From Paenibacillus mucilaginosus 3016 (GTDB taxonomy: Bacteria > Bacillota > Bacilli > Paenibacillales > NBRC-103111): a stretch of DNA of 64,000 bases. This document shows positions 1 to 17,397 of this stretch, piece by piece; the stretch's first letter is position 1; every line of letters starts with the position of its first letter. The stretch spans positions 5,350,001 to 5,414,000 of the forward strand of contig NC_016935.1 of the NCBI RefSeq assembly GCF_000250655.1. The letters run 5' to 3'. Under the pieces are notes generated by a model, which saw only the letters and a program-made list of their open reading frames with translations, did not search any database and was not told where the DNA came from. The position numbers and the translations under genes were made by a program.

Positions 1-872
1 GTCCCCTCCAGCAGCTGTCCCTTCAGTGAGAACACTTCAATCTCCCCGTCCTCCCGGATGAACAGCTGGTAGTTGTAATCCCCGCTCTTCTCGATCCATT
101 CTTCCAGAATCCAGCTCGTCTCGGACCCCCGGCGGCCAAAGCGCATGAGCCGCTTCACGAGTCCCCTCATCCGCTCCGGGCTCTCCACCAGATGCAGCCC
201 CCTGCCCGAAGCCGAATACGGGTCCTTGACAATGAACCTGGCGCCCGGCGAGTAGAGCTCCTCATATGCCTGCAGCAGCTCCGCCGCCGAACGGCAGACT
301 GTCCCCCTGCAGACGGGCAGACCGAGCATCTGCGCCATGGCCCGGTTCGCCGCCTTGTTGTTGATGCCCGCGGCGGCCCGGGAGGAGGGACCGATGATCC
401 GCAGTCCCGTCCTCACCGCAATCTCCTCTTCCCGCTCCGTCACAGCATACGGGAGGAAGTACACATCCGGCCCGGCCAGCGCAGCCAGCTCCCGGAGCAG
501 CTCTTCATCCTTCAGGACCAGTTCGGCAATCGGGGTGTAAGGGTCCGCCCCCGCAGGACACAGGATGCGCGGAATCTCGAAGCCGAGCGCCTCGAGGTCC
601 GTCAGGAACTCCGCGTCAGGCATGTCGCGGAGGAGGAGCACATCCTGCCGGCGGCACAGCAGCAGGTTCATCTCCTCCATCCGGTTGACCGCGCGGTCCT
701 CCTCCCGGTCCGTGATACCGCCGGTCACCGGGTGCCAGATCTGCTCCGCTCCGATATTGCAGAGCCACACCAGGGTATCCCGCCGCCGGTCCGCCGTCAT
801 CGCCCCGACAAAGGACCATCCCTCTCCGGGGGCCGCATCAATCCAGCGGCAGCTGTCCTCGGATAACGTCAT
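1..872 (-). CDS. ATP-grasp ligase, partial (C-terminus beyond left edge)
   Basis: About 290 residues are visible from an ATG at 872; the 3' end lies outside the window. The ATP-grasp fold is suggested by an INNKAANR segment followed by MLGLP (about residues 180-195), the nucleotide-binding Lys segment VKDPYSASGRG (about 225-236) and an LEEWIE strand. The same landmarks (VNTK..., FLIKDNYGVSGQGN) occur in the ATP-grasp protein at 8920-10260, so the two are diverged paralogues in one cluster. ATP-grasp enzymes join a carboxylate to an amine or thiol through an acyl phosphate; in butirosin synthesis BtrJ loads amino acids onto the carrier protein BtrI. The start overlaps the end of the upstream decarboxylase gene by 35 bases, which points to coupled translation. 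Substrate unknown. Confidence 0.8.
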   Translation of the reverse strand, partial: MTLSEDSCRWIDAAPGEGWSFVGAMTADRRRDTLVWLCNIGAEQIWHPVTGGITDREEDRAVNRMEEMNLLLCRRQDVLLLRDMPDAEFLTDLEALGFEIPRILCPAGADPYTPIAELVLKDEELLRELAALAGPDVYFLPYAVTEREEEIAVRTGLRIIGPSSRAAAGINNKAANRAMAQMLGLPVCRGTVCRSAAELLQAYEELYSPGARFIVKDPYSASGRGLHLVESPERMRGLVKRLMRFGRRGSETSWILEEWIEKSGDYNYQLFIREDGEIEVFSLKGQLLEG

Positions 873-2106
873 GCACCCGCCCCCTTTCTCTCAGCACATA
901 CTCGCCGCCATCATGAAGCAGCACCTCAGCCGGCAGCGCATGGCTCAGGAACAGGACGGGGCTGTGCGTCAGGCCGTAGGCGCCCGATTTGTCCACACAG
1001 ATCACGTCTCCAACAGCTGCGGCCGGCAGCTCCACTTTCTGCCCGAGCACATCCGTCGCCGTACAAAGCGGTCCCGTCACGGTTACCGGCTCGGAGGGTC
1101 CGCTGCGGCCCAGCACCCGCATCGGGAAGTTGTGGCGGATGTACCGGCCGAGGAACGCCGACGAGGCATGCTGGTTCGAGCCGCCGTCGCACACCAGATA
1201 GGTGCTGCCCTTGCTCACTTTGCGGTACAGCACCTTCGTGAGGAATACCCCGGCTTCCGCGAGCAGGAACCGTCCGCTCTCCACCGCGATCCGCGTGCCC
1301 CGGAGCCTGCCGGCATACCGCAACCACAGCTCTGCGATGCCTGCGCGCAGCCGGTCCAGCTCGAGCGCCGCTTCATGGGCAAAGTACGGCACGCCCCAGC
1401 CGCCGCCGATATCCAGGAACTGAAGCGGAGTTCCGGAGCCCTCCGCATACCGGAGCGCGAGCTCGAAGGTATCCTCAAGCTGGGCCAGCAGCGCGTCCGC
1501 CGACAGAATCTGGGTGCCGAAATAGACGTGGAACCCGATGAGCCGGACGCTCTGCAGCCGGGGCAGCTCGGCCAGCACCCCGGACAGCTCCTCCTCGTCG
1601 ATCCCGAACTGGGAGGAGACGCCGCTCATCCGGATGCCCGCCGTCTTCTGCTCGAGGTTCGGGTTAACGCGGATGGCTATATCCGCCACGCGTCCCCTGG
1701 CAGCCGCAATCCGGTCGATCCGGCGGATTTCCTCCAAACTCTCTGCATTGATGGAGCAAATGCCGAGATCCACGGCCCACTCCAGCTCCTCCGCGGTCTT
1801 TCCGGGACTCGTGAACAGAATGTCCGCAGGCGGATATCCCGCCTCCAGAACGGCCGCCAGCTCGCCGGCCGAAGCCACCTCGACCCGGCAGCCTTCCCTT
1901 CGAAGAAGCTGGGCGATGCCGAGGAGCGGATTGCATTTCATCGAATAGTACACCTCCACCCCCGCCTCGGCCGGAAACAGGCTGCGGAGGGTCTCCAGCT
2001 GCCGGCGGATCACGGCACCGTCATAGACATACAGCGGCGTTCCGTACTTCTCCGACAGGCCGGCCAGACGGACTTCATCCAGGAGGCTGTCCACCGTCAG
2101 TTCCAT
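838..2106 (-). CDS. fold-III PLP-dependent decarboxylase (BtrK/LysA superfamily)
   Basis: 422 residues from the ATG at 2106, chosen because longer starts run deep into the preceding gene; the ATG overlaps that gene's stop by 10 bases. Alanine-racemase-like barrel with the Schiff-base lysine in YYSMKCNP (K57), the HVYFGTQ strand (about 193-199) and the phosphate-binding loop DIGGGWG (232-238). The C-terminal beta domain has SGAYG (374-378). Diaminopimelate decarboxylases carry CESGD at the C-terminal active site; here it is GPLCTATD (Cys348), the form I associate with decarboxylases acting on carrier-protein-bound substrates such as BtrK, and with exosortase-associated relatives. With an acyl carrier protein and ATP-grasp ligases in the operon, decarboxylation of an aminoacyl-carrier thioester is the best inference; a primary-metabolism LysA is less likely. 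Confidence 0.85.
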   Translation of the reverse strand: MELTVDSLLDEVRLAGLSEKYGTPLYVYDGAVIRRQLETLRSLFPAEAGVEVYYSMKCNPLLGIAQLLRREGCRVEVASAGELAAVLEAGYPPADILFTSPGKTAEELEWAVDLGICSINAESLEEIRRIDRIAAARGRVADIAIRVNPNLEQKTAGIRMSGVSSQFGIDEEELSGVLAELPRLQSVRLIGFHVYFGTQILSADALLAQLEDTFELALRYAEGSGTPLQFLDIGGGWGVPYFAHEAALELDRLRAGIAELWLRYAGRLRGTRIAVESGRFLLAEAGVFLTKVLYRKVSKGSTYLVCDGGSNQHASSAFLGRYIRHNFPMRVLGRSGPSEPVTVTGPLCTATDVLGQKVELPAAAVGDVICVDKSGAYGLTHSPVLFLSHALPAEVLLHDGGEYVLRERGRVHDVIRGQLPLD

Positions 2107-2918
2107 CGCGCCGCCTCCCCGCCCGCCGCCACAGCAGCCGCAGACGCTTCCTCCACCACCCACGGCGGGGAGCCGCTGTCCCACAGCTCCTCCAGGTACC
2201 GTTTGTCCCTCAGGGTATCCATGCATTCCCAGAAGCCCCGGTGCTTATAGGCGGCGAGCTGTCCGTCCCGGGCCAGTCTGCCGAGCACCTCGCCTTCCAG
2301 CTCGGTGCGGTCGTCTTCCAGGTAATCCAGGACCCCCGGCTCGAACACGAAGAAGCCTCCGTTGATCCAGCTCTCTTCCGCCGGCTCCTTTTCCTTGAAG
2401 CCGGTCACCCGCTCGCCCTCGAACGTCAGGGTGCCGAACCGCCCCCTCGGCCGAACCGCCGTCACGGTGGCCAGCTTTCCCTGCGCATAGTGATAGTCGA
2501 GCAGGGCCCGGAGGTTCACGGAGCTGACCCCGTCGCCGTAGCTCATCAGGAACGTGCCGCCGCGCAGCCGGTCCCGCAGCCGGTACAGCCTTCCTCCGGT
2601 TGTCGTATGCAGACCGGTATCCCGCAGATGCACGGTCCAATCGCTGCCCCGGGACTCCGTCACCTGGACGTGTCCCTCGCCCAGCCGGACGGTAACGTCG
2701 CTCTGCAGATAAGGATAATTCAGAAAGAACTGCTTGATGCAGTCCCCTTTGTACCCGAGCGCCACATAAAATTCCTTCATGCCGTACCGGCTGTAATGTT
2801 CCATGATATGACAGAGAATCGGACGGCCGCCGATCTCCACAAGCGGCTTGGGCTTCAGGGCCGTCTCCTCGCTGAGCCGGGTGCCGAAGCCGCCGGCCAG
2901 CAGTACCACTGGGAGCAT
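2097..2918 (-). CDS. rfbF: glucose-1-phosphate cytidylyltransferase
   Basis: 273 residues from the ATG at 2918, with an AAGGAAG ribosome-binding site about 8 bases upstream; an in-frame TTG sits one codon earlier. Makes CDP-D-glucose from CTP and glucose 1-phosphate, the first step to CDP-linked deoxysugars. The nucleotidyltransferase signature GGFGTRL (9-15) with ALKPKP (20-25) is clear, and SYGDGVSSV is the metal/nucleotide motif seen in RfbF. Length is close to the usual 255-260, with a small alanine-rich C-terminal extension (about 250-273) overlapping the next gene by 10 bases. No CDP-glucose 4,6-dehydratase is visible; it may lie beyond the left edge. Product family clear; the role in the cluster is inferred. 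Confidence 0.88.
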   Translation of the reverse strand: MLPVVLLAGGFGTRLSEETALKPKPLVEIGGRPILCHIMEHYSRYGMKEFYVALGYKGDCIKQFFLNYPYLQSDVTVRLGEGHVQVTESRGSDWTVHLRDTGLHTTTGGRLYRLRDRLRGGTFLMSYGDGVSSVNLRALLDYHYAQGKLATVTAVRPRGRFGTLTFEGERVTGFKEKEPAEESWINGGFFVFEPGVLDYLEDDRTELEGEVLGRLARDGQLAAYKHRGFWECMDTLRDKRYLEELWDSGSPPWVVEEASAAAVAAGGEAARWN

Positions 2919-2937
2919 CAAATCATCTTCCTTTCTC

Positions 2938-3750
2938 TTAGGAGCTCGCGCTGGTGTAACCCCGGATCGCGATCCGCCAGAGGAGCCGGGTCATCAGCAG
3001 GAACAGCAGCGGAGCCGCACAGCCCCACACCCAGTAGACGGGAGTCATTCTCCCGAGGATATAGAGCGGCGACAGGTTGCTGATCAGAAAGACCGGCAGC
3101 AGGAACGTGCCTGCCCGCTGGATCGCGGTATGATAGATCGCCATCGGCATCTGGTTGAAGTCGAACAGCGCGTTCGATACCTCGTTGACCCCGCCCGTCT
3201 TGACCGTCCAGAAGGCCAGCAGCTGGGGCAGGAGAAATATCGCATAGGTCAGCATCACGCCGATGAGGATGAAGCCGATGAAGCCGGCCACATGGGCGGC
3301 CGTCACCGGAATGCCGCTCTGCCGCCAGCCGTACACGATCATGAGCACGCCCCCGATCAGATTCGGGATCGAATACCCGATATCGATGCTGCGCAGCGTG
3401 GCCATGAACTGCAGGGACACCGGACGGGTCATCATGATATCGAGCGAGCCGGTGCGGATATGCTCCGGCAGCTGGATGAAGTTGCCGTAGAAGAAGGTGG
3501 AGTACAGACCGGCCATCACGGTGTACACGCCGGTGAAGAGCAGGATCTGGTCCGGCGAGAAGCCGCGGATGTCCACCCCGATCCGGTAGATCACATAGAC
3601 ATAAGACAGCTTGATGCACAAGTAAGCGAGCTCGATCAGGATGCCGAAGACAAAATTAACCCGGTATTCCATCATCGAGATGACGCTGTTCTTGGCGAAT
3701 AATCCGTAGATCCGTGCGTAACGGAGGCACTCCCTCCATACTGCGGTCAT
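2938..3750 (-). CDS. ABC-2 family transporter permease
   Basis: 270 residues, about six hydrophobic segments, beginning with an amphipathic stretch followed by EYRVNFVFGIL, and containing the RTGSLDIMMTRP loop typical of ABC-2 (PF06182-type) permeases. Starts 3 bases after the upstream permease gene ends, and both follow the ATPase gene at 4557-5549. Two different half-size permeases plus one ATPase form a complete exporter of the kind found in antibiotic and polysaccharide clusters. In this operon it most likely exports the cluster product or gives self-protection (inference from position). Confidence 0.85.
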   Translation of the reverse strand: MTAVWRECLRYARIYGLFAKNSVISMMEYRVNFVFGILIELAYLCIKLSYVYVIYRIGVDIRGFSPDQILLFTGVYTVMAGLYSTFFYGNFIQLPEHIRTGSLDIMMTRPVSLQFMATLRSIDIGYSIPNLIGGVLMIVYGWRQSGIPVTAAHVAGFIGFILIGVMLTYAIFLLPQLLAFWTVKTGGVNEVSNALFDFNQMPMAIYHTAIQRAGTFLLPVFLISNLSPLYILGRMTPVYWVWGCAAPLLFLLMTRLLWRIAIRGYTSASS

Positions 3751-3753
3751 GAC

Positions 3754-4560
3754 TCACCCTCCCACCGACTCGTATTTGCGGAGGCCAGTTCGCCACAGCA
3801 GCATGGACACCAGGGTCAGCACGAGGATCCAGAGCAGCTGCACCGAGACGCTCGCGAGCATGTCGCCGGAAGGAACCTTGCCGAGCAGAAGCTGCGCGGG
3901 AAAATAAACGATATACTTGAACGGCAGCAGGTTCAGCACCGCCCGCACCGAATCGCTGAACATATCGAGCGGGAACAGGCCCCCTCCCGCAATGTTCGCG
4001 AGCAGGCTGAAGGCCAGATAGATGCCCCACACCTCCTGGATCCAGAAGGCGGTCATGCTCAGCGAGAAGAAGATGAGAAAGTTGATGGCGACCGACAGGA
4101 TCAGTGCAGTGAGGCACACCAGGATCCGCATGGGCTCCGGCTGAATATCGCTCCGCAGCGCAAAGACGACGCCGGCCGTCAGCACGGCAATGACGAGATA
4201 GTGGATCGACTTCTCGCCGAGAAACGAGCAGAGGCGGAACAGAAAATAGTGGATCGGCTGCACGACGAACTTGCTCAGACGCCCGTCCTTGATGTCGCCT
4301 GCGATCTCATGCTCGAACCCCGCGGCGGCCAGCTTGCCGAACAGGGCGGCGAGAATCGAATAAGCGATAAGCTCACCGCGGGTATAGCCGAACACCGAAG
4401 GCCGGGCGGCGCTTTGGAAGACCGCGAGCCACAGGAACACCTGGACCACGATCGGAAAGATGCTGCTGAGCAGGCTGAGGGCGAAGTTCGCCCGGTATTC
4501 CAGCGCATTCTGCAGCCCCATGACGAAGGTCTTAGCATACTTGCCCGCCGCTCCGCTCAT
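3754..4560 (-). CDS. ABC-2 family transporter permease
   Basis: 268 residues with about six membrane segments, opening with KTFVMGLQNALEYRANFALSLLSSIFPI and carrying the cytosolic loop AGDIKDGRLSKFVVQPIHYF, a landmark of this ABC-2 subfamily (compare RTGSLDIMMTRPVSL in its partner). Paralogue of the permease immediately downstream. The ATG overlaps the stop of the ATPase gene by 4 bases, so the two are translationally coupled. The pair would form the membrane channel of a heterodimeric exporter. Confidence 0.85.
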   Translation of the reverse strand: MSGAAGKYAKTFVMGLQNALEYRANFALSLLSSIFPIVVQVFLWLAVFQSAARPSVFGYTRGELIAYSILAALFGKLAAAGFEHEIAGDIKDGRLSKFVVQPIHYFLFRLCSFLGEKSIHYLVIAVLTAGVVFALRSDIQPEPMRILVCLTALILSVAINFLIFFSLSMTAFWIQEVWGIYLAFSLLANIAGGGLFPLDMFSDSVRAVLNLLPFKYIVYFPAQLLLGKVPSGDMLASVSVQLLWILVLTLVSMLLWRTGLRKYESVGG

Positions 4561-5549
4561 GAGGCCGCCTCCTTGGCATACAGCAGGGCGATGCCCTCCT
4601 CAATGGAGATTTCCTCAATCGTAAAGTCCAGCACCGGCAGATGCTCCAGCATCTCCTTCGAGCGTTCCTTGAGATCGCTCTTGTCGACCTCGAGCACCGC
4701 CTCCATCCCGCTGCACTCCCGCACACGGCCGAATCGCTCCAGCCGCCGGGGATCGACCGGCTCGCCCAGCTTGATCTTCATCAGCTTCTTCTGCCCGAGC
4801 TGGCGGTTGACTGCGGCCAGGCTGCCGTCATAGACGATCCGGCCGCTGTTCACGATGATCGTGCGCTTGCAGAGATCCTCGATATCATTCATATAGTGGC
4901 TCGTGAGGACGATGGTCGTGCGCTGCTGCTGGTTGTAATATTTCAGAAACTCGCGGATGCGGCGCTGGGACAGGATATCCAGACCGATCGTCGGTTCGTC
5001 CAGGAACAGCACCCGGGGCTGATGCAGCAGCGAAGCGATGAGCTCCAGCTTCATCCGCTCCCCGAGCGACAGGCGCCTCACCTGCACGCCCAGCAGCTCC
5101 TTCACGTCCAGCAGCTCGGCCAGCTCGTCTACCGTGCGGCGGAACTGCCCGTCCTCCACTTCATAGATGTGCTTGTTCAGATGCAGCGATTCATTGGCGG
5201 GCAGATCCCACCACAGCTGGCTTTTCTGGCCCATGACGATGGCGAACTGCTTCTTGAACGCCTTCCTCCGCTCCCACGGCACATGGCCGAGGATCGAAGC
5301 GCTGCCGGAGGTCGGGTACAGGATGCCCGTGAGCATCTTCAGGGTCGTCGTCTTGCCGGCGCCGTTCGGACCAAGGAAGCCGACGATCTCGCCTTCCGGG
5401 ATCTCGAAGGAGATGCCTTTGACCGCTTCCTTGGTCAGCATTTCCCTGCGGAACAGGTTGCGAAGGGAGCTGGCGAGCCCCACTTCTTTCTTATAATATT
5501 GAAAGGACTTCGAGAGTCCTTCTACGATGATTCCCGGCATCTTCACCAC
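4557..5549 (-). CDS. ABC transporter ATP-binding protein
   Basis: 330 residues. Walker A GPNGAGKT (60-67), Q-loop in VMGQKSQLWWDLP, signature RRLSLGERMKLEL (a variant of LSGGQ), Walker B VLFLDEPTIGLD, H-loop LTSHYM. The C-terminal third (about 245-330) is a regulatory extension typical of exporters paired with the permease type that follows. Start is ambiguous: GTG at 5549, or ATG at 5540 three codons later; GTG overlaps the upstream oxidoreductase stop. Powers export by the two permeases at 2938-4560. The family is certain; the transported compound is not. Confidence 0.92.
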   Translation of the reverse strand: MVKMPGIIVEGLSKSFQYYKKEVGLASSLRNLFRREMLTKEAVKGISFEIPEGEIVGFLGPNGAGKTTTLKMLTGILYPTSGSASILGHVPWERRKAFKKQFAIVMGQKSQLWWDLPANESLHLNKHIYEVEDGQFRRTVDELAELLDVKELLGVQVRRLSLGERMKLELIASLLHQPRVLFLDEPTIGLDILSQRRIREFLKYYNQQQRTTIVLTSHYMNDIEDLCKRTIIVNSGRIVYDGSLAAVNRQLGQKKLMKIKLGEPVDPRRLERFGRVRECSGMEAVLEVDKSDLKERSKEMLEHLPVLDFTIEEISIEEGIALLYAKEAAS

Positions 5550-6577
5550 TCCCAGTTAACCTCTAGCTGCGGGTAGCGAATCAGTGACGCCCCCCCCGCG
5601 GCTGCAGACCGATAAATCCGCTCCCCGGCCGCAATCCGGGCGGCAGTCGCATCAAGACTCACAGGCTCCCTCACTCCCTCAATCACATCGCTGAAGAAGA
5701 GCAGCTGGCCGGCGTAATAGCTCTGTTCCTCCCAAAACCGCTTCGACGTCTCCCCTGTTCTCCGTTCTTTGACCTTCAGTCCCATCCGGAAGCCGAGATT
5801 GGGCCGGAAGAAATCGTCCACAGCCACGACAGCCTCTTCGAAAATCAAAGTATGGCCCGCCTTGTAAGGCATCTCGAAGGAAGTGACGGCCGAAGCCTTC
5901 AGCCCGCCGGGATAGCGCAGCTCCGCCTCGAAGGTCCAATCGCATCCGTTCGGCCCTCCGAAGGAAGAACGGCCGGTGCAGGATTCTGCGTCCAGCCCCA
6001 CAGCGGCCTGCAGGAACTGCAGCCAGTAGCAGCCGAGGTCCTGGAAGGCCCCGCCGCCCAGCTCCGGGAAGCTGCGGTAGCTCGTCTCGAAGCCCGCCCG
6101 GGGCAGATACGAGATCCTCGTCGCGATCTCCAGAAGCCGGCCGTACGTCCCCCCGTCGATCAGCTCCTTGACGGCCGCCTGCCACGGGTGGTGCTGCACC
6201 ATGAGGCCTTCGAATACGTGCACCCCATGCTTCTGAACCGCATCCCGGATTGCGTTCATCTCGGCCGAATGCAGGCACAGCGGCTTCTCGACCAGCACAT
6301 GCTTGCCTGCTTCCACCGCCTTGACCGTCCACTCCGCATGCAGGTGATTGCTCAGGAGGATATACACCCAGTCGATCTCACGGCAAGCCAGCAGCTCCTC
6401 ATAGCTGTCGAACACGAGCGGGATGCCGTATTCGTCCGCCACCCGCTGTGCCTTGCTCCGTGTCCGGGAGGCGATCCCCAGTACCTGAAGGTGACCGATC
6501 TCCCTGACCGGCTCCAGCAGCACCCGGGGCAGAATAGACGCCGCTCCGATGACGCCGATCTGCTGTCTTTTTCTCAT
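5543..6577 (-). CDS. Gfo/Idh/MocA family NAD(P)-dependent oxidoreductase
   Basis: 344 residues. N-terminal Rossmann fold with GVIGAASI (8-15), then the family hallmark EKP (97-99) in HVLVEKPLCLH, and the C-terminal alpha/beta domain with DLGCYWLQF. Enzymes of this family oxidise or reduce hydroxyl groups on sugars, inositols and related carbonyl compounds; the closest general type is the dTDP/UDP-sugar or xylose dehydrogenase branch. Located between the radical SAM gene and the exporter genes, so probably a tailoring step on a sugar or cyclitol part of the product (inference). Cofactor preference cannot be read reliably. Confidence 0.85.
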   Translation of the reverse strand: MRKRQQIGVIGAASILPRVLLEPVREIGHLQVLGIASRTRSKAQRVADEYGIPLVFDSYEELLACREIDWVYILLSNHLHAEWTVKAVEAGKHVLVEKPLCLHSAEMNAIRDAVQKHGVHVFEGLMVQHHPWQAAVKELIDGGTYGRLLEIATRISYLPRAGFETSYRSFPELGGGAFQDLGCYWLQFLQAAVGLDAESCTGRSSFGGPNGCDWTFEAELRYPGGLKASAVTSFEMPYKAGHTLIFEEAVVAVDDFFRPNLGFRMGLKVKERRTGETSKRFWEEQSYYAGQLLFFSDVIEGVREPVSLDATAARIAAGERIYRSAAAGGASLIRYPQLEVNWEW

Positions 6578-6607
6578 AGGGCAGGCCTCCGTATGTATCC
6601 GTCCATC

Positions 6608-7783
6608 TCAAATCCCGTGCAGGTACAGCACACTGCACTTCGAGCAGGCCGGGGTCAGGCCTTGCACATTGATGATCTCGCGGATGCGCTCGTAGTCCTG
6701 CGATTCCCAGATGTCCATCAGACTCCGCTCCTTGAGATTGCCCACAGTGAATTCGCTGAAGAACTTGCAGGCGGTCACATCCCCCGTCGGGCCTACATCC
6801 ACCCTGGTGGAGAGAGCAAGACAGGTCGTGGCGCACCGGGAGGTCATCGCTTCTCCGCGGACGAACTGCTGGATCTCGTCATAATCGAGCCCCGGCTGGT
6901 AGCGGACCCGGATATTCCATACCCGCTCATTGATCCGCGTCAGCTCCCCCACCAGCTCATGGACCCGCTCCGCACTCATCTGGTATTTGAACGCATGCCA
7001 GGAGGCGATATGCTGCTCTTCCAGCTTCCGCAGCCAGCTGAATTTCTCGGCGAAGTAGCTGTCCATCTCGAGCGACGTTTCCTTGGAGATGTACCACGGG
7101 AAGCAGAGAATCACGAGATCGAGCTTCAGACTCTCAAAATACTCCAGCAGCTCGTAAAGCTTTGGGATCATGCTGTCGCTGATCATGGAGTGCACGGAGA
7201 TTCTTCCTTTGTAGATCCCCTGCTCCCGCAGCTCCACGAGCCGTTCGATCTGTCTCATCGTCTTGTGGAACGTGCCCTTCCCCCGGATGAAGTCATGCTC
7301 GGCTTCGAGCCCTTCCACGGCCACAAGCAGCTCCAGGTGCGGGGAGATCTTGAGGATGCCGTCCATATACCGGTCCATAAGCAGGCCGTTCGTGCAGATC
7401 GTCATCTCCCGCGGGTCTTCGGCGAGGAGCTCGAGGATCCGGTCGAACTGCCGGTGGATCATCGGCTCCCCGCCCCAGAGATAGAGCCGGGACTGGGTTA
7501 CATGGGTCTCGGCGAGAATCCGCTCGATCACTTCGATGTCGATGTCCTTGTTCTGTTCTTCCTTGTCCATATTCTGGTGATAACCGTCCTCGTTCCACTG
7601 GAAGCAGTGGGCGCAGCGCAGGTTGCACCGGTTCGTCAGCTTGATGCCGATCGATTCGGGGACCGGGGTCTTGTACAGCGGGTTCCTGGTTCTCTCGCGA
7701 AAAGGCACCGCCATCTTCTTCATCGTGCGCTTCATGAGCTCGAAGGACTCCTGATCGAGAGTCACACTGCTGCTTGGCTGCAT
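6608..7783 (-). CDS. radical SAM enzyme with SPASM/twitch-type C-terminus
   Basis: 391 residues. The CxxxCxxC motif is C53-N-L-R-C57-A-H-C60, which binds the SAM-cleaving 4Fe-4S cluster; LWGGEPM follows as the GGE motif. C-terminal cysteines in SRCATTC, VTACKFFSE and PACSKC (C380, C383) fit an auxiliary iron-sulfur domain. Such enzymes mature ribosomal peptides or dehydrogenate sugars and cyclitols (BtrN in butirosin is a shorter relative). No precursor-peptide gene is visible in the operon, so a small-molecule or carrier-bound substrate is more likely. It lies 30 bases before the oxidoreductase gene and 11 bases after the glycosyltransferase gene. Confidence 0.85.
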   Translation of the reverse strand: MQPSSSVTLDQESFELMKRTMKKMAVPFRERTRNPLYKTPVPESIGIKLTNRCNLRCAHCFQWNEDGYHQNMDKEEQNKDIDIEVIERILAETHVTQSRLYLWGGEPMIHRQFDRILELLAEDPREMTICTNGLLMDRYMDGILKISPHLELLVAVEGLEAEHDFIRGKGTFHKTMRQIERLVELREQGIYKGRISVHSMISDSMIPKLYELLEYFESLKLDLVILCFPWYISKETSLEMDSYFAEKFSWLRKLEEQHIASWHAFKYQMSAERVHELVGELTRINERVWNIRVRYQPGLDYDEIQQFVRGEAMTSRCATTCLALSTRVDVGPTGDVTACKFFSEFTVGNLKERSLMDIWESQDYERIREIINVQGLTPACSKCSVLYLHGI

Positions 7784-7794
7784 AGCCGCTCACC

Positions 7795-8907
7795 TCACTT
7801 GGACTTAAGTTTCTGGTCGTTCATGCACAGCTGGTCGACATAGCTGCGGATTGTGCCTTCCCGGGTCCGCAGCGTTACATGCAGGCTCTCCAGCATAGAG
7901 AGGCTGTAATCCGAATCTTTCCATGCTTCATAAGAAATGCCGAATCCGTTCGCAATCCACAGCTCGGCATTCTTCGCCTCATGCGGTCCGAAGGGATCCA
8001 GGAAAACGACGGGTGTCGCCGAGGCCAGCGAATCGATCAGCGTCGCTCCCCCGGGCTTCGAGACAATCGCCTTGGACCCGCGGACAAGCTCATACAATCC
8101 GTGACGGCGGCCGGGTGAGGTGAAGACGGCCGGCTCCCCGGCCCGGACCTCGCCGAATCTTGGGAATGTATGCCGGGGCGGCTCCCCTTCCTTCCGCCAC
8201 GCCTCCCAGCACGGGTCATTCATCCAGAAGCGGTGCTCCCCATGCCGCTCCGCTTCCTGCGCAGCGCCCGCGATGATATCGAGCGCGAAGCCCTTTCCCT
8301 CCAGCTCCATCCGTTTCCCGAGGTATGTGCCCATGCCCCATCCGCCGCCGTGGAGCACCAGGCGGTTCTCTCTCTCCGCATAAGGAACCGGAGGCTCCCC
8401 GGTCACGGGAAGACGGAAGAGGACCTCGAGGGCTGCGGCATCATACATACCGACCTCCCTGTAGCGGGATGCGTAATCGGGGACGTACTTGCGTACGCTT
8501 TTCCAGGAAGGGGATACTCCCGCATCCACGTAGAGCAGCTCCGCCTCGACCGGTTTCTCTCCCATCCGCTCCCGGTAGCGGTCCAGGAGATAGATCCAGT
8601 GGCCGGAGAGCACGACGAACCGTCTGCGGTCCTCCTCCTCCCACCGGGAGAACAGGGCCTCCGCCGCCTCCCAGTCAATCGAGGGCCGCACATCGGCGGG
8701 CAGCCGCTGGGCCACCAGCGCCACCGCGAAGTTCGCATGATACTCCCAGCGGCTCTCGGCTATCTTCTCCTGCTTCTCCTGCTTCAAATAACTTTCGAAC
8801 ACCACGGCTTCCGCGGCATGTCCGCGTGCTTCCAGCTGCCGGCACAAGAGCAGCGACGGGATATAAAATCCAAGGCCGAAGCCCGAGCCGAGTATGGTCC
8901 ACTGCAT
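7795..8907 (-). CDS. GT-B fold glycosyltransferase-like protein
   Basis: 370 residues. N-terminal GSGFGLGFYIPSLLLCRQLEARGH is the glycine-rich loop and helix typical of GT1/GT28 enzymes. The C-terminal half has SKPGGATLIDSLASATPVVFL followed by GPHEAKNAELWIANGFGISYE, matching the donor-binding region of MurG and macrolide glycosyltransferases (GG-T-E-type motif, here GGATLID). With the cytidylyltransferase in the operon, transfer of a sugar onto the cluster product is likely. Donor and acceptor unknown. The alternative, a non-catalytic GT-B homologue acting as a partner protein, cannot be excluded because the usual Glu after the GG motif is absent. Confidence 0.75.
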   Translation of the reverse strand: MQWTILGSGFGLGFYIPSLLLCRQLEARGHAAEAVVFESYLKQEKQEKIAESRWEYHANFAVALVAQRLPADVRPSIDWEAAEALFSRWEEEDRRRFVVLSGHWIYLLDRYRERMGEKPVEAELLYVDAGVSPSWKSVRKYVPDYASRYREVGMYDAAALEVLFRLPVTGEPPVPYAERENRLVLHGGGWGMGTYLGKRMELEGKGFALDIIAGAAQEAERHGEHRFWMNDPCWEAWRKEGEPPRHTFPRFGEVRAGEPAVFTSPGRRHGLYELVRGSKAIVSKPGGATLIDSLASATPVVFLDPFGPHEAKNAELWIANGFGISYEAWKDSDYSLSMLESLHVTLRTREGTIRSYVDQLCMNDQKLKSK

Positions 8908-8919
8908 GGACTGCCCCCC

Positions 8920-10260
8920 TTACCGAGTGAATTCGAGCGACAGCGATTCGAGCAGCCGAAACAGCCGCTCCGTATAGCCGCTGCCGTGCTCCCTGTCCCG
9001 CCCTGCGGAGCAAATGTACAGCCGGCCCTTGAACGGATGGTCCGCAGAACGGTTCACCGTCAGCGTATTCGCCGTCAGCGGAAGCACGCCTCCATCCCGG
9101 CCGGGACGGTACAGTACCCCTTCCCGGTCCATCACCGCCAGCAGGTCTTCGAAGACCAGACCCGGCGGCAGGGAAGGCAGCGTACAGGACCGCAGGTTGC
9201 CCTGAAGGCCGGCCTCCTGCAGGAATTGGTCCAGCCCATGCTTGATCAGGCTCATCGACTTGCGCGCATTGATCTCGACGAGCGGCGCCAGTTCCCCGTC
9301 CGCCAGCCCCATGGAGTCAATGCAGACGTGGCCGAAATAGCCGTCCCGGTGCAGCTCGCGGCCGATCGATTCCATCAACCCGAAGTACCTCCGCTCTTCG
9401 AGCTCCTCCAGGAAGAGCGGCTCCGGGGTATAGGACTCTTGATAAGCGAATTCACTGTTCGCCAGCCGCTGGACGGACAGAATCCGGACCGAACCCTCCT
9501 CGCCCACATGAAACTGGCAGGAGAAATCATACGCTTTGGGCAGCAGCGTCTCCAGCACGTACTCGGTGCGCTTCCCTTTGTTCTCCTGCCCGGCCGTATG
9601 GGCGGTGATGCGCTCCAGCATGCCTTCCGAGTCGATGAGCAGGTTGCCCTGCCCGGATACTCCGTAATTATCCTTGATCAGGAAGGGGCCTTCCGCAAGC
9701 AGAGCACGGCCGGCGGCCGCAAGCTCCCCGGAGCTGCGGACCGTCACCGCCGGGTTCCGGAGGCCCAGCCGGTCTCTCATCTCCGCCGAATACACCTTCG
9801 TATTGACACGGGTGATCACCTCCATCGGCGGCACAGGGCAATTCAGTCCGAGGACGCGCGCCGCCTCCTCCGTTCCGGGGATGACCGCGAAGGGCTCCAG
9901 CGTCCCCTCGCCCGGCAGCCACTCGGCCAAGTCGCTGCGAGGGAGCGCTGCCAAGAGCTCCGGCACGCTCAAGTGAGGGTTCGCCCCGTCTTCGTCCAGG
10001 GGAAGCCGGTTATGGCGGAAGGTGAAGCCGAGCTCGGCCAAATACTGCAGGTGGGCCGCATTCATCGGACGGCGCGTGAGGAGCGTGTCCCCCTCCCGGC
10101 AGAAGGGGAAGAGCAGCTCATCCATCGCCGAGACCATCCGCCGGCCGGCGGGGTCCGGGAGCCCCGGCAGCTTGACCAGTCCTTCCGGCCGCCAGAACTG
10201 CTCGGCCTCGAAGGAACCGCAGTGGACGCGGGGCAGGGCTGTACCTCTCTCCGGCCGCAT
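8920..10260 (-). CDS. ATP-grasp ligase, candidate amino acid:carrier-protein ligase (BtrJ-like)
   Basis: 446 residues, ATG at 10260 preceded by GGGAGATAACG and only 2 bases after the carrier-protein stop, so coupled to it. Landmarks: VNTKVYSAEMRDRLGL (152-167), nucleotide-binding FLIKDNYGVSGQGN (193-206, K196), and the metal-binding end VEINARKSM (328-336). The N-terminal 140 residues are a separate pre-ATP-grasp region and the last 90 a C-terminal cap, an arrangement like BtrJ and pheganomycin-type ligases. BtrJ-type enzymes attach an amino acid to the phosphopantetheine arm of a carrier protein using ATP. Direct adjacency to a free-standing carrier protein supports that role here; the amino acid is not predictable by eye. 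Confidence 0.82.
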   Translation of the reverse strand: MRPERGTALPRVHCGSFEAEQFWRPEGLVKLPGLPDPAGRRMVSAMDELLFPFCREGDTLLTRRPMNAAHLQYLAELGFTFRHNRLPLDEDGANPHLSVPELLAALPRSDLAEWLPGEGTLEPFAVIPGTEEAARVLGLNCPVPPMEVITRVNTKVYSAEMRDRLGLRNPAVTVRSSGELAAAGRALLAEGPFLIKDNYGVSGQGNLLIDSEGMLERITAHTAGQENKGKRTEYVLETLLPKAYDFSCQFHVGEEGSVRILSVQRLANSEFAYQESYTPEPLFLEELEERRYFGLMESIGRELHRDGYFGHVCIDSMGLADGELAPLVEINARKSMSLIKHGLDQFLQEAGLQGNLRSCTLPSLPPGLVFEDLLAVMDREGVLYRPGRDGGVLPLTANTLTVNRSADHPFKGRLYICSAGRDREHGSGYTERLFRLLESLSLEFTR

Positions 10261-10262
10261 CG

Positions 10263-10523
10263 TTATCTCCCGCTCTCGGCCGTCTCCGGCAGATGCTGCC
10301 GGATATATCCGCAGAAGGAGGCAATCGAATCCAAATGAGACAGATCGAAGGTATCAAAGTCGATTTCCACCCCGAATTCGTCCTCCACCCGCAGAATAAA
10401 ATGGGTGATCAGCAGCGATTCCATGCCCGAATCCTTCAGAATGCTCGATTCCGGTGTCAGCCGGTCCGCAAGTGCGGGGTCTTTTTTCAGCTCGCCGATC
10501 AGCTCAATAATGCGTTGTTCCAT
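10263..10523 (-). CDS. free-standing acyl carrier protein
   Basis: 86 residues from the ATG at 10523, favoured over the ATG two codons upstream because AAGGAG is then 8 rather than 2 bases away. The phosphopantetheine site is KDSGMESLLITHFILRVE with Ser36 as the probable attachment residue (the DSL motif is altered to ESL). Downstream EDEFGVEIDFDTFD matches the acidic helix-2/3 region of ACPs. Not part of a PKS or NRPS gene, hence a discrete carrier like BtrI. It sits between the hydrolase and ATP-grasp genes and probably carries the aminoacyl intermediate acted on by the ligases and the decarboxylase. Confidence 0.88.
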   Translation of the reverse strand: MEQRIIELIGELKKDPALADRLTPESSILKDSGMESLLITHFILRVEDEFGVEIDFDTFDLSHLDSIASFCGYIRQHLPETAESGR

Positions 10524-10547
10524 GATCATCGCTCCTTCGATTCGTGA

Positions 10548-13133
10548 TTAACTATTCATGGCTTGCAGTCTACCGCCCGAGTAGAGGATCACCTCCTTGC
10601 TCAGATAAGGATGGGGCCCGCTGCCGTAGCCGGGGAGCAGCAGCTTGCGGGTAAACAGATGCTTCCCAAACAGCTCCGGCGAGGTAGCGAACGCGAACAG
10701 CGCTTTCCTGGCCGGGTTGAGCGGGTTCGGCTGAATGAACAGCACGCAGTACGGCCCCGGGTAAAAGCGCCCTCCGAGGCCGAAGCCATCGACCCGGAGC
10801 TCAGCACGCAGTCCGTTCGGAACCTCCGTCCGCAGCCAGTCCAGCTGAGAGCTTCCGCAGCCGGCCCAGATCCAACTGCGGCGCGCCAGCCGTTCCCTTG
10901 GGAACCCCGGTCCCAAGGTCAGGTGCGGGTAATCGACGTACACCACAGGATCCCAGGTCGCCGTCTTGGGACGGGCCATCACGTCCAAAGCTCTGCGGAC
11001 GGCCCGCTCCTCCTCTTCGGTCCCCCATTCGCCGGGGATCAGCACGTCCACCCCGGAGTTGTATATCCCGAGAATCCCCGTTCCATGAGAGGGGAGATCC
11101 GCCTGCAGAATGTCCGTCCCGCTTACCTGCCGCCAAGCACCGTCCGTCCCTTTCCTGAACTGCAGCTCGCCTGCGGAACCCGGCGGCACGGTGAAGCGCT
11201 GTCCGTCAATGACGGCCTGCACCGGTCTGCCGCCGGCCTGTGACGGATGCAGCTTGAAGCCGCCGGTCCCTTCGGTAGCGATCGCATACGTTCCCGGGGC
11301 GGTACGCTCCCCGGTGAGCTCGGCCGCCGATGCCGCCTCATAGGAGGTCACCTCCAGCCAGAAGCTGCGCCGGTGTCTTCCGATGGCGGAGCGGAATCGG
11401 ACCGCCGGCGGGTCCTCCCGCTTATGGTGCTGCAGAAGCCAGTTCAGAGTGAACGGAAGGTAATGAAAGCCCTTCGTGTCCCAGTGATTCGAACCGGTCT
11501 CCAGCACGCCGGAGTGATGCCCGGGCAGTGCGGCGGCCGGAAGGGTGTAGGCTTCTTCAAGCAGGTAATCCTCATCCCCGCACAGGTTGAGAATGGGCAG
11601 ATGCTGCAGATTCACCAGATTCGGCAGATAAGGGACACCTGCGGTAACGGATATAGCGGCGAACCGGTCGGGATAAGCCTCAGCCAGCGCCCATGCGGTG
11701 GAAGCCCCGTTGGAATAGCCGGTCAGGGTGATGCGCCCCGGATCAATCCGATAGCGGCTGCAGATGAAGTCAAGGCCCTCCAGGAAAGCGGCCTCGCCGA
11801 TACAGCCGCCCATTGTGACTCCCCGGCACGAGAAGGTTGCAAGCACGGCACCGGTCTCCACCCCACTGAGGAAGCCGTCCCGGAAGTCGGGGAGGAACAA
11901 TTCCTCGTGCCCCACCGGCAGTAGAACGATAAGGGGGAAGGAATCCCCTTCCGAATACCCGGGCGGGAGCAGCAGCGTGCAGCGGACAAGAGCACCGTCG
12001 AGCTCCGAGACGAAATAATCGTCAGCCAGTCTGCGGGGATACGAAGCCTCTCGGATGGGACGTCCCTCCCTCACGGCCGCCAGGCAAGCCGGCAGATAGT
12101 CCGCATACTCCCAGGCGATGCGGGGCTTCTCGTCTTTGAGCGCCCCGCGCTCCTCCTCCCGGATCGCCTCCAGCTCCCTCAGAATGCCCTCGATCGTGGC
12201 CCGGTCGTCCCCCGGAATCTCCCGCCCCTCCTGGAGCTGCTCCCATTCCCGTTTCGCCGGCCGAATCAGAGCATCCAGGGGATTAACGATCAAGGGCGCA
12301 CTTAGGCTGTGACCATTGCCCTGGATATCCGCATACCGGATCTCGAAGCACAGCAGGGACCGGGTCAGGGAGCGCAGCCCCTCCAGATCGACGGAGATGA
12401 CCCGGTGGAAGGGCAGCTCCAAGGATGCGATCACCCGGCCATGGTCATTGCGTACGTTCAGCGCCGCCGGTTGTCCGTCATCCACCTCCGTCCGGTCCGC
12501 CGCCAGCAGGAATACCGTATGCTCCGGCCCCTGCGCCAGTGATTTGAATTCGTGTACCAAGACGGCCCGCCTGCGGACATTACGGTTCAAGAATTCCTCA
12601 TACAGCGGATGGGGCTGCCGGGCCGCTTCCTCCTCCGGATCGCTGATCCGCAGCGAGCGGTCTGCCCTCAGCTCGGTGAATTCGATCAGAATCCCATGCT
12701 CCCCCTCGCACAAGGGAATCAGAAAAGGCCCGGAGTCGCAGTAAACGAGCTCGCCGCCGATCCAGATCCGCCCCTTGATCTCGAAACAGCGGAACAGCAG
12801 TTTCCTGTCCCGGTCACACTGCAGCCGGGCCGCCAGGAATAACGATTCCCCTTCTTCCAGGCGGTACCCTGTCAGATCGAGCTCTCGGCTGCGCGGATCG
12901 ATGCGATCCAGCCGCCGGCAGGGAGCCGCCATCCTTCCGCCGGGTCCCGTCAGTTCCAAGGCGTCCGGTCTCTCTTCCTCCAGCCGTCCGCTCCACCAAT
13001 CGGGAGCCTCCGGGTTCACCCTGCCGAGGATCGCCGGCCCGCTCCTGACCGGTCCGATGGCATACGCCTTCGTCAGCCGCATGGGTTCTCCCGTGAATCG
13101 ATTCAGATCAGGCATCCTGTCCACTTCCGTCAT
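10548..13133 (-). CDS. large alpha/beta-hydrolase protein heading the cluster operon
   Basis: 861 residues from the ATG at 13133, which has a consensus AGGAGG site; longer reading in the same frame lacks one. Three parts: an N-terminal beta-rich region (about 1-300), a central esterase/peptidase-like alpha/beta hydrolase (about 370-570), and a C-terminal region of about 280 residues that I do not recognise. The triad is visible: nucleophile Ser474 in TGYSNGAS, Asp520 in LCGDED, His550 in GSNHWD. The central part resembles polyhydroxybutyrate-depolymerase or prolyl-oligopeptidase type esterases. No signal peptide. First gene of the operon; it could release or transfer the acyl group from the carrier protein, or hydrolyse a protected product, but this is inference. 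Confidence 0.78.
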   Translation of the reverse strand: MTEVDRMPDLNRFTGEPMRLTKAYAIGPVRSGPAILGRVNPEAPDWWSGRLEEERPDALELTGPGGRMAAPCRRLDRIDPRSRELDLTGYRLEEGESLFLAARLQCDRDRKLLFRCFEIKGRIWIGGELVYCDSGPFLIPLCEGEHGILIEFTELRADRSLRISDPEEEAARQPHPLYEEFLNRNVRRRAVLVHEFKSLAQGPEHTVFLLAADRTEVDDGQPAALNVRNDHGRVIASLELPFHRVISVDLEGLRSLTRSLLCFEIRYADIQGNGHSLSAPLIVNPLDALIRPAKREWEQLQEGREIPGDDRATIEGILRELEAIREEERGALKDEKPRIAWEYADYLPACLAAVREGRPIREASYPRRLADDYFVSELDGALVRCTLLLPPGYSEGDSFPLIVLLPVGHEELFLPDFRDGFLSGVETGAVLATFSCRGVTMGGCIGEAAFLEGLDFICSRYRIDPGRITLTGYSNGASTAWALAEAYPDRFAAISVTAGVPYLPNLVNLQHLPILNLCGDEDYLLEEAYTLPAAALPGHHSGVLETGSNHWDTKGFHYLPFTLNWLLQHHKREDPPAVRFRSAIGRHRRSFWLEVTSYEAASAAELTGERTAPGTYAIATEGTGGFKLHPSQAGGRPVQAVIDGQRFTVPPGSAGELQFRKGTDGAWRQVSGTDILQADLPSHGTGILGIYNSGVDVLIPGEWGTEEEERAVRRALDVMARPKTATWDPVVYVDYPHLTLGPGFPRERLARRSWIWAGCGSSQLDWLRTEVPNGLRAELRVDGFGLGGRFYPGPYCVLFIQPNPLNPARKALFAFATSPELFGKHLFTRKLLLPGYGSGPHPYLSKEVILYSGGRLQAMNS

Positions 13134-16236: not shown

Positions 16237-17397
16237 TTACTGCAGCGCTCCATAGATTACATTCCGCAGCCGCGGCTGATGCACCGCTTCGAAGTTCGGC
16301 AGCATCTGCTGCATGTACACCGCGGACAGCTTTTCCTTCGGGTCGATCATCACCCAGGTGCCCGCAAGCCCGCTCCATCCGAATTCGCCGACGGAGGCGT
16401 TGCTGCCTGCTGCCTCGGGATCCATCAAGGTCCTTACGCCGAGTCCGTAACCGAAGCCCTCGAGGTAAGACCAGTTGTAATCCTGCAGCTGCACCGGGCT
16501 GAGCTGGTTGGCGGCCATCAGGCGGACCGTGCCGGAACTCAGGATTCGCTCCCCGTTCCACTCGCCACCCAGCGCGAGCATCTGGGCAAACCGCGAGTAG
16601 TCTCCGATCGTCGACAGCAGGCCCGCCCCGCCGCTCTCGAAGCGGCTGTCCGGCCCGTACGGCTCATCAAACTGCGTGCTGGGAGTGAGCGTACCGTCCT
16701 CCGCCCGGTTGTAATGGGTGCACAATCTTCCCTGCGTCTCAGCCGTGAGCTTAAAGGACGTATCCTTCATGCCCAGGGGCCCAAAGATCTCCTCCTGCAT
16801 GAACTGTCCCAGCGTCCGGCCGGAGATCACCTCGATGAGCGCCCCCAGCACGTCGTGGCTGAAGCCGTACTGCCAGCGGGTGCCGGGCTCGAAGGCCAGC
16901 GGGATCGCCGCCAGGGCCCGGGAGAGCGAGCGGGCATCGAGCTTCTCGGCACGCTGCCGGCTCCCCTCCAGCCACTGCTTCACCCGGCGCTCCGTCTCGG
17001 TCCGCTCTCCCCCGTAGGTCAGGCCGGAGGTCATCGCGAACAGGTCTTTGACCCGGATCGGCCGCTTGGCCTCCACGGTGGACAGCGCTTCCAACGAGTC
17101 CGGCACGAACACCTGCGGATTCTTGAAGTCGGGCAAATACTCATGGAGCGGGTCGTTCAGCAGAAAGCGGCCCCGCTCATACAGGATGAGCGCCGCGGCG
17201 CAGGTGACGACCTTGGTCATCGAGAAGATCCGGTACACGGTGTCCTCCGTGATGGGCTCCCGGCGCTCCAGATTCGCGTAGCCGGCATAGTCCTGGTAGA
17301 GCAGCTCCCCCTCCTTGGATACGGAGCAGGCACATCCGGCCGGCCCCTTCTCCACGAAGCCTTGCATCAGTTCGGTCAGACGGTTCATTCGTTTCAC
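16237..17397 (-). CDS. serine hydrolase, class C beta-lactamase/EstB family
   Basis: 386 residues from a GTG at 17397 preceded by AGGAGG at 8 bases. SxxK motif S59-M-T-K62 in YRIFSMTKVV, and the second-motif tyrosine in WQYGFSHDVLG, which matches the Tyr of EstB-type esterases rather than the YxN of penicillin-binding proteins. No signal peptide or membrane segment is visible, so it is probably cytoplasmic. Located between the GH43 and GH8 genes, each with its own terminator; it could deacylate plant-polysaccharide oligomers (inference). It might also be a general esterase or D-peptidase. Confidence 0.82.
   Translation of the reverse strand: MKRMNRLTELMQGFVEKGPAGCACSVSKEGELLYQDYAGYANLERREPITEDTVYRIFSMTKVVTCAAALILYERGRFLLNDPLHEYLPDFKNPQVFVPDSLEALSTVEAKRPIRVKDLFAMTSGLTYGGERTETERRVKQWLEGSRQRAEKLDARSLSRALAAIPLAFEPGTRWQYGFSHDVLGALIEVISGRTLGQFMQEEIFGPLGMKDTSFKLTAETQGRLCTHYNRAEDGTLTPSTQFDEPYGPDSRFESGGAGLLSTIGDYSRFAQMLALGGEWNGERILSSGTVRLMAANQLSPVQLQDYNWSYLEGFGYGLGVRTLMDPEAAGSNASVGEFGWSGLAGTWVMIDPKEKLSAVYMQQMLPNFEAVHQPRLRNVIYGALQ

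Follow-up and report, generated by a model that had tools for sequence, protein, structure and literature searches.

What does an operon make that joins the parts of the butirosin side-chain pathway to sugar, radical S-adenosylmethionine (SAM) and export genes, and on which of its two carrier proteins would its decarboxylase act? The question is raised by a 64,000-nucleotide window of Paenibacillus mucilaginosus 3016 (bases 5350001-5414000 of the 8.74-Mb contig NC_016935.1, here C1), in which 14 minus-strand genes run leftwards from the start of a hydrolase gene at 13133 with intergenic gaps of -35 to +30 bases. The window edge splits this operon: same-strand genes reach position -1952, about 1.95 kb past the left edge (positions count from the first base of the window, those before it being negative), and a convergent plus-strand gene beyond them extends to -3118. 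A preliminary description of the window had presented the listed genes as one tight minus-strand operon and had recognised a butirosin-type module of carrier, ATP-grasp ligase and decarboxylase beside sugar genes. Family searches and the spacing bear out the first point, the translations of all 15 genes (the 14 of the operon and the convergent dehydratase) being free of stops, and profiles, identities and linkage bear out the second.

The cluster most likely makes a sugar-containing molecule decorated with a small amino acid through a butirosin-like carrier-protein route. On balance it is probable that two biosynthetic modules are combined, such that gamma-aminobutyric acid (GABA) or beta-alanine would be made on one carrier protein, CP2, and moved by a BtrH-like enzyme onto a deoxyhexosylated core product, which would then be exported. 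As judged by sequence comparison, the parts are known and the combination is new: a butirosin-type side-chain module set on a widespread core of carrier, ATP-grasp ligase, glycosyltransferase and radical SAM enzyme.

The side-chain module

The yardstick genes come from a butirosin-type locus (L208, L209) in another genome of the same family, where a decarboxylase sharing 95% identity with the solved BtrK chain in the PDB lies beside a carrier, an ATP-grasp and a BtrO-like gene, with a BtrH_N protein (45 bits) and a BtrN-like protein also present. Its genes are those we take to be BtrI, BtrJ, BtrH, BtrN and BtrO from their order, their similarity and butirosin genetics. That genome (G084; L208, L209, L058) also has a separate radical SAM core cluster at G084:C1:2288461.

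The window decarboxylase (838..2106, minus strand), whose start probably lies near 2106, overlapping the next gene, rather than at 2226, is a fold-III pyridoxal phosphate (PLP) enzyme. Its best PDB chains are BtrK 7ru7 and 2j66 (E about 1e-99), followed by a diaminopimelate decarboxylase at 5e-49; it is 42% identical to BtrK as against 27.6% to the genome's own separate LysA, and its motif GPLCTATD (GPLCTPED in BtrK) fits the pattern GPLCTxxD. Identities are used for its affinity because in its tree four rows were less than half filled and the LysA branch reached an extreme 10 changes per column.

Two ATP-grasp ligases and two carriers compete for the role of loading pair. ATP-grasp 1 (-516 to 872, minus strand) is the gene cut at window position 1, with 1..872 inside the window, and its PreAtp-grasp, ATP-grasp and PGM1_C matches are all above cut-off; CP2 (-773 to -513, C1:5349227-5349487, minus strand; PF00550 35.1 bits) follows it. 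ATP-grasp 2 (8920..10260) and its partner CP1 (10263..10529; PF00550 36 bits, cut-off 20.8) lie on the same strand well inside the window. The ligases are homologous (E 4.6e-35), and a profile of three BtrJ-type ligases separates them: ATP-grasp 1 scores 158.9 bits and ATP-grasp 2 47.8, and in the wider families the 19 rows of ATP-grasp 1 span 141.6-207.6 bits and the 25 of ATP-grasp 2 span 42.0-73.1, without overlap. Reverse ligase profiles agree. In a tree of 51 rows, of which 25 are ATP-grasp 2 (that of the window and 24 chosen from 73 loci), ATP-grasp 2 forms its own branch (100/100) and BtrJ stands on the ATP-grasp 1 side (99/95); because this tree has no outgroup and contains a flagged row, the profile scores are the main evidence for the affinity of ATP-grasp 1 with BtrJ. 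The carriers divide in the same manner, CP2 matching BtrI by BLAST at 40.7% over 54 amino acids (E 1.2e-13) and CP1 giving no BLAST match to it, while BtrI itself reaches 61.1 bits against the profile of CP2 and 30.7 against that of CP1.

Co-occurrence was followed in 80 loci, the best 80 of 162 relatives found by a pattern scan of a species-genome collection with the radical SAM family. Each locus extends some 10 kb to both sides of the radical SAM gene, or as far as the contig end (8 of the 80 are shorter than 19 kb), and genes were called as simple longest open reading frames (ORFs) and labelled by best BLAST match, a procedure by which short or overlapping genes can be missed. CP2 is found in 28 loci, a BtrH-like gene in 21 (by BLAST), an ATP-grasp 1 label in 15, the cytidylyltransferase in 14 and the decarboxylase in 11. 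All 11 decarboxylase loci carry both ATP-grasp 1 and the BtrH-like gene; CP2 was called in nine of them, is visible by eye in L119, where the caller missed it, and is not resolved in L118. CP2 comes after ATP-grasp 1 in 9 cases and before the BtrH-like gene in 10. Four of the 15 loci with an ATP-grasp 1 label are without a decarboxylase: L165, L176 and L182, and also L123, whose sequence stops at a contig edge. ATP-grasp 2, for its part, stands without a nearby decarboxylase gene in 62 of its 73 loci.

Taken together, ligase profiles, carrier profiles and co-occurrence make CP2 and ATP-grasp 1 the site of the butirosin-like chemistry: by homology, the BtrI-like carrier is CP2 and the butirosin-like ligase is ATP-grasp 1, at and beyond the left edge of the window. 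The preliminary description had read the operon as making an omega-amino-acyl group on a carrier, and to that extent it holds, the butirosin-type module being present; its choice of CP1 and the 8920-10260 ligase as the decarboxylase's loading pair is not supported. The loading test that it envisaged, with this ligase, CP1 and the decarboxylase, would probably be made with the wrong pair. Its advice to extend past the left edge proved fruitful, for there lie CP2, a BtrH-like acyltransferase and a convergent CDP-glucose 4,6-dehydratase.

The BtrH-like cysteine acyltransferase (-1952 to -777, C1:5348048-5349223, minus strand) is a putative further member of the module. Its relatives in L036 and L037 score 31.1 and 42.3 bits on PF14399, above the cut-off of 29.7, and Cys, His and Asp residues are invariant in all 18 closer relatives. 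An iterated profile seeded with those 18 proteins first picked up true BtrH, at E 3.3e-6, in round three, before including it; its members occur in 49 loci in that round and in 66 of the 80 after round four, a last step in which the profile may drift. One His column is conserved in 87 of the 89 family rows, and the Cys was not recovered in that listing. A control on 91 kb of other DNA of the same genome gave no match even at E 10, albeit from a small set (60 ORFs as against the 1104 tested in the loci). When whole genomes were scanned with a profile of three sequences, matches came from 11 of 104 in the family, with the radical SAM gene no more than about 14 kb away in 10 of these, and from 5 of 398 in the class. 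Of the 14 loci without a member of the iterated profile, nine hold a protein resembling ketoacyl synthase III (KAS III), two representatives of which exceed a Pfam cut-off, and five (L131, L165, L168, L174 and L185) show neither protein. In Paenibacillus sp. P25 (L036/L107) the BtrH-like gene apparently loses its frame towards the C-terminal end, where a piece of the final third is detected separately by the profile.

The core module

By gene order, homology and linkage, CP1 and ATP-grasp 2 belong to a separate conserved core with a GT-B glycosyltransferase, a twitch-type radical SAM enzyme and often a Gfo/Idh oxidoreductase and an ATP-binding cassette (ABC) exporter. The radical SAM gene is in all 80 loci, GT-B in 78, ATP-grasp 2 in 73, CP1 in 71, the ABC ATPase in 58 and Gfo/Idh in 46; the gene next after CP1 is ATP-grasp 2 in 55 cases, and in 15 it is that of the radical SAM enzyme. 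The loci are mostly from Paenibacillus, with others from Cohnella, Clostridium, Cellulosilyticum, a Lachnospiraceae and a Clostridiales metagenome-assembled genome (MAG); they also include a Terriglobus MAG whose contig shows the radical SAM gene only. The core occurs in Paenibacillaceae and some clostridia, and the radical SAM core was found in 29 of the 104 genomes of the family and in 4 of 398 drawn across the phylum, its own genome included. No description of this core was found in open-licence PubMed Central (PMC) text, a scope that does not show its absence from print.

ATP-grasp 2 matches no Pfam family at E 0.001 (PreAtp-grasp and PGM1_C are sub-threshold at E 0.007-0.008) and no PDB chain at E 1; it shares invariant Lys, Glu and Asn columns with other ATP-grasps. 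The radical SAM protein (6608..7783, minus strand; PF04055, PF13186) has three SAM-cluster cysteines, each present in 81 of 81 rows, and an auxiliary pattern C321-X17-C339-X40-C380-X2-C383, each cysteine of which is likewise present in 81 of 81. This pattern resembles the 17-44-2 spacing of the BtrN-like protein, to which its C-terminal stretch is also similar (E 1.5e-6 over 75 amino acids), the barrels of the two proteins not being significantly similar (E 0.33). From the cysteine spacing the auxiliary domain of the SPASM/twitch kind is assigned to the twitch type, as in BtrN, the twitch radical SAM dehydrogenase that oxidises a cyclitol alcohol in butirosin synthesis. One relative, in L064 (genome G039), has an in-frame TGA in its radical SAM gene. 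The Gfo/Idh/MocA oxidoreductase (5543..6577, minus strand; PF01408, PF22725) best matches an unassigned oxidoreductase in the PDB (3e-33), with sugar 3-ketoreductase 3rbv (1e-24) among the 21 matches listed; its likeness is to several sugar oxidoreductases, those acting as sugar 3-ketoreductases included.

The genome has three matches to the phosphopantetheinyl transferase family. In L112, L115 and L116 the core has a phosphopantetheinyl transferase gene as its neighbour (the L112 member confirmed by family search), an arrangement consistent with carrier loading.

Proposed pathway and precedents

As read from gene content, homology, conserved residues and linkage, the substrates, order of steps, acceptor and product would be as follows. 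ATP-grasp 1 would load the distal carboxylate of Glu (gamma) or Asp (beta) onto CP2, and the BtrK-like enzyme would remove the alpha carboxylate of the bound residue to leave GABA or beta-alanine. ATP-grasp 2 may load a second amino acid on CP1, to be joined in the core to a sugar that the GT-B enzyme would attach, probably a 6-deoxyhexose derived from cytidine diphosphate (CDP) sugar by the cytidylyltransferase, the 4,6-dehydratase and perhaps Gfo/Idh. The twitch radical SAM enzyme could oxidise or rearrange a CP1-bound or sugar position, the BtrH-like cysteine enzyme would move the omega-aminoacyl group onto an amine or hydroxyl of the scaffold, and the ABC system would export the product. 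Both the Glu and the Asp choices have precedent, since BtrK acts with glutamyl-BtrI in the butirosin pathway (as described in a passage of PMC7857480), and VinO decarboxylates carrier-bound isoaspartyl in vicenistatin synthesis, the BtrK-like BolN being proposed to do likewise for bolagladin (both in a section of PMC7756342).

The likeness to BtrI, BtrJ, BtrK and BtrH extends to the set of a carrier, an ATP-grasp ligase, a fold-III PLP decarboxylase and a putative BtrH-type acyltransferase, but gene order differs, the window ligase is 26% identical, and the scaffold is by recognised gene content not an aminoglycoside. Among the 14 operon genes there is no luciferase-like family match for BtrO (BtrV was not sought separately) and no gamma-glutamyl cyclotransferase match for BtrG, parts of the large hydrolase being without family assignment; because neither BtrO nor BtrG is recognised, neither hydroxylation nor protection of the side chain is expected. 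Likewise, as the preliminary description had observed for the synthase, neither 2-deoxy-scyllo-inosose synthase nor its aminotransferase has a family match among the operon genes, the rest of the genome not having been searched. The BolO/BolC/BolN and VinN/VinL/VinO systems, which supply beta-alanyl-type starter units, similarly have a PLP enzyme decarboxylate an amino acid bound to a free-standing carrier, a role that is proposed for BolN (PMC7756342), but differ in that an adenylating enzyme rather than an ATP-grasp does the loading and in that they feed a nonribosomal peptide synthetase (NRPS) or a polyketide synthase (PKS).

The sugar genes recall RfbF/RfbG, which turn CDP-glucose into CDP-4-keto-6-deoxyglucose; both enzymes are present, but are linked here to carrier and ATP-grasp genes, and besides the Gfo/Idh candidate no later CDP-deoxysugar enzyme is recognised in the cluster. 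The RfbF-type glucose-1-phosphate cytidylyltransferase (2097..2921, minus strand; TIGR02623 339.5 bits, cut-off 300.25) and the 4,6-dehydratase (-3118 to -2021, C1:5346882-5347979, plus strand and convergent; TIGR02622 469 bits, cut-off 278.45) both exceed curated cut-offs, and CDP-4-keto-6-deoxyglucose is therefore the likely sugar precursor. In L107 and L108 the dehydratase directly follows the BtrH-like gene on the same strand.

More broadly, it is possible, though a little short of probable, that the core with a BtrH-like or KAS III-like acyltransferase represents a widespread uncharacterised class of carrier-templated aminoacyl-glycosides made without NRPS or PKS, to which some Paenibacillus added the butirosin-type omega-amino-acid module and the CDP-deoxysugar genes. 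If the two-module proposal is true, butirosin side-chain chemistry, which shields the aminoglycoside against several resistance mechanisms (as stated in a passage of PMC10318531), is a portable module employed with a sugar scaffold of another kind, and it becomes possible to interpret a large group of clusters in Paenibacillus and clostridia. A core with neither an NRPS nor a PKS enzyme may be overlooked by standard mining rules. In addition, the carrier and ligase assignment renders the loading and decarboxylation steps directly testable.

Weighing the proposal and its alternatives

Several findings tell against the two-module proposal. The loci are related by descent, so linkage p-values are not independent and are overstated, and absences are soft. 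In L165, L176 and L182 (3 of 80), CP1 and the glycosyltransferase have a BtrJ-group ligase next to them instead of ATP-grasp 2, and neither CP2 nor a decarboxylase accompanies it; the tie between ligase group and carrier is therefore not strict, and a BtrJ-type ligase is able to work with a carrier of the CP1 type. Among the 21 loci with a BtrH-like gene by BLAST, ten show no decarboxylase. The window BtrH-like protein is itself under the Pfam cut-off (PF14399 23.8 bits against 29.7) and in pairwise comparison does not match true BtrH significantly, the P. puerhi relative reaching E 0.003; in the PDB its sole match was an unrelated kinase fragment at E 0.72. The 99/95 split that groups ATP-grasp 1 with BtrJ hangs partly on one long flagged row, G023, in an unrooted tree, and ATP-grasp 1, just 26% identical to BtrJ, is as close to ATP-grasp 2 (E 1.5e-35). 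Finally, quite different clusters, L210-L216, also contain relatives of ATP-grasp 1 (42-46%) and the decarboxylase (50-57%), and consequently the acceptor cannot be deduced from this pair of genes alone. In P. athensensis the parts are divided, with CP2 and the BtrH-like gene within the cluster (L091/L106) and the ATP-grasp 1 and decarboxylase relatives elsewhere, in a cluster of the L210-L216 type (L213).

The L210-L216 type contains a carrier and a relative of the nucleotidyltransferase and, by eye, AMP-ligase-like and kinase-like genes; L213-L215 also hold a protein of about 896 amino acids weakly like the window hydrolase. In L211 and L215 the ATP-grasp is spread over more than one reading frame, as are the nucleotidyltransferase and permeases in L211, which suggests decay or sequence errors.

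The alternative that survives best, though it is unlikely, is that the operon makes a surface glycolipid or wall polymer, glycosylated, aminoacylated from carriers in Dlt fashion and then flipped by the ABC exporter. Surface glycans are the commonest setting for CDP-sugar genes, and the GT28/UgtP-like C-terminal half of the GT-B protein (7795..8907, minus strand) resembles a diacylglycerol glucosyltransferase: its family profile, A6, matches PDB 9wde, a diacylglycerol beta-glucosyltransferase, at E 1.1e-6 in that half only, and Glyco_tran_28_C is found in 3 of 21 family members at E up to 0.01, the window protein not among them. Yet this is the single glycosyltransferase, and no membrane acyltransferase, initiating transferase or polymerase is recognised among the operon genes. 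Accessory genes, moreover, differ between species as they do in natural-product clusters. The exporter, too, points elsewhere, its ATPase (4557..5549, minus strand; PF00005 94.1 bits) being nearest the DrrA model TIGR01188, though at 205.8 bits it is below the cut-off of 312. The two ABC-2 permeases (2938..3750 and 3754..4560, minus strand) score 148.7 and 101.5 bits on PF06182.

It is decidedly improbable that, as first supposed, the roles of BtrI and BtrJ fall to CP1 and the 8920-10260 ligase, with CP1 as the carrier on which the decarboxylase works. The genes of this pair are adjacent and share the decarboxylase's operon, and the three loci just described do put a BtrJ-group ligase with a CP1-type carrier; against this stand the BtrJ-profile scores, the fit of BtrI to the CP2 profile at twice the bits of that to CP1, the 62 ATP-grasp 2 loci without a nearby decarboxylase, and the complete BtrI/J/K/H-like set at the operon's left end. 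There is very little chance that the enzyme decarboxylates diaminopimelate or ornithine in the ordinary way, as part of an unrelated operon: it has the same fold and scores 288.6 bits on TIGR01048, just under the cut-off of 297.9, but the genome's separate LysA scores 505.5, BtrK is by far the closest solved relative, and ATP-grasp 1 and the BtrH-like gene accompany it in all 11 loci. A cluster for a ribosomally synthesized and post-translationally modified peptide (RiPP), matured by the radical SAM, ATP-grasp and ABC genes, is scarcely credible, for although the radical SAM enzyme weakly matches several RiPP maturase models, it is below cut-off for every one of the 25 families listed (the best 25 of 75 matched), the operon has two carrier proteins, and its widest gap of 30 bases leaves no room for a precursor gene between genes.

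Cluster ends and surroundings

Probable limits for the two-module cluster can be read from its relatives. The gene set of L108 spans hydrolase to dehydratase, matching the ends of the window cluster; that of L107 spans CP1 to dehydratase, and those of L109 and L110 span hydrolase to BtrH-like gene. The window cluster's ends agree with these. The large protein at the right end (10548..13133, minus strand) has an alpha/beta-hydrolase (esterase) core, polyhydroxybutyrate (PHB)-depolymerase/esterase-like but sub-threshold in Pfam, which matches PDB LC-Est1C at E 5e-12 over residues 386-577; relatives occur in 4 of the 80 loci (L106, L108, L109 and L110). A terminator-like hairpin at 13288-13259 lies inside a longer reading frame of this gene (one found against 0.5 expected by shuffling) and might hint that the hydrolase starts at 13133.

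To the right of the operon are, by sequence appearance, arabinanase-like (13410-15971), beta-lactamase-fold (16237-17397) and glycosidase-like (17546-18709) genes. The whole genome has 109 carrier-domain matches, many of them in reading frames long enough for an NRPS or a PKS, and several lie close to the cluster, to the left at 5298347-5342377 and to the right from 5408339 onward.

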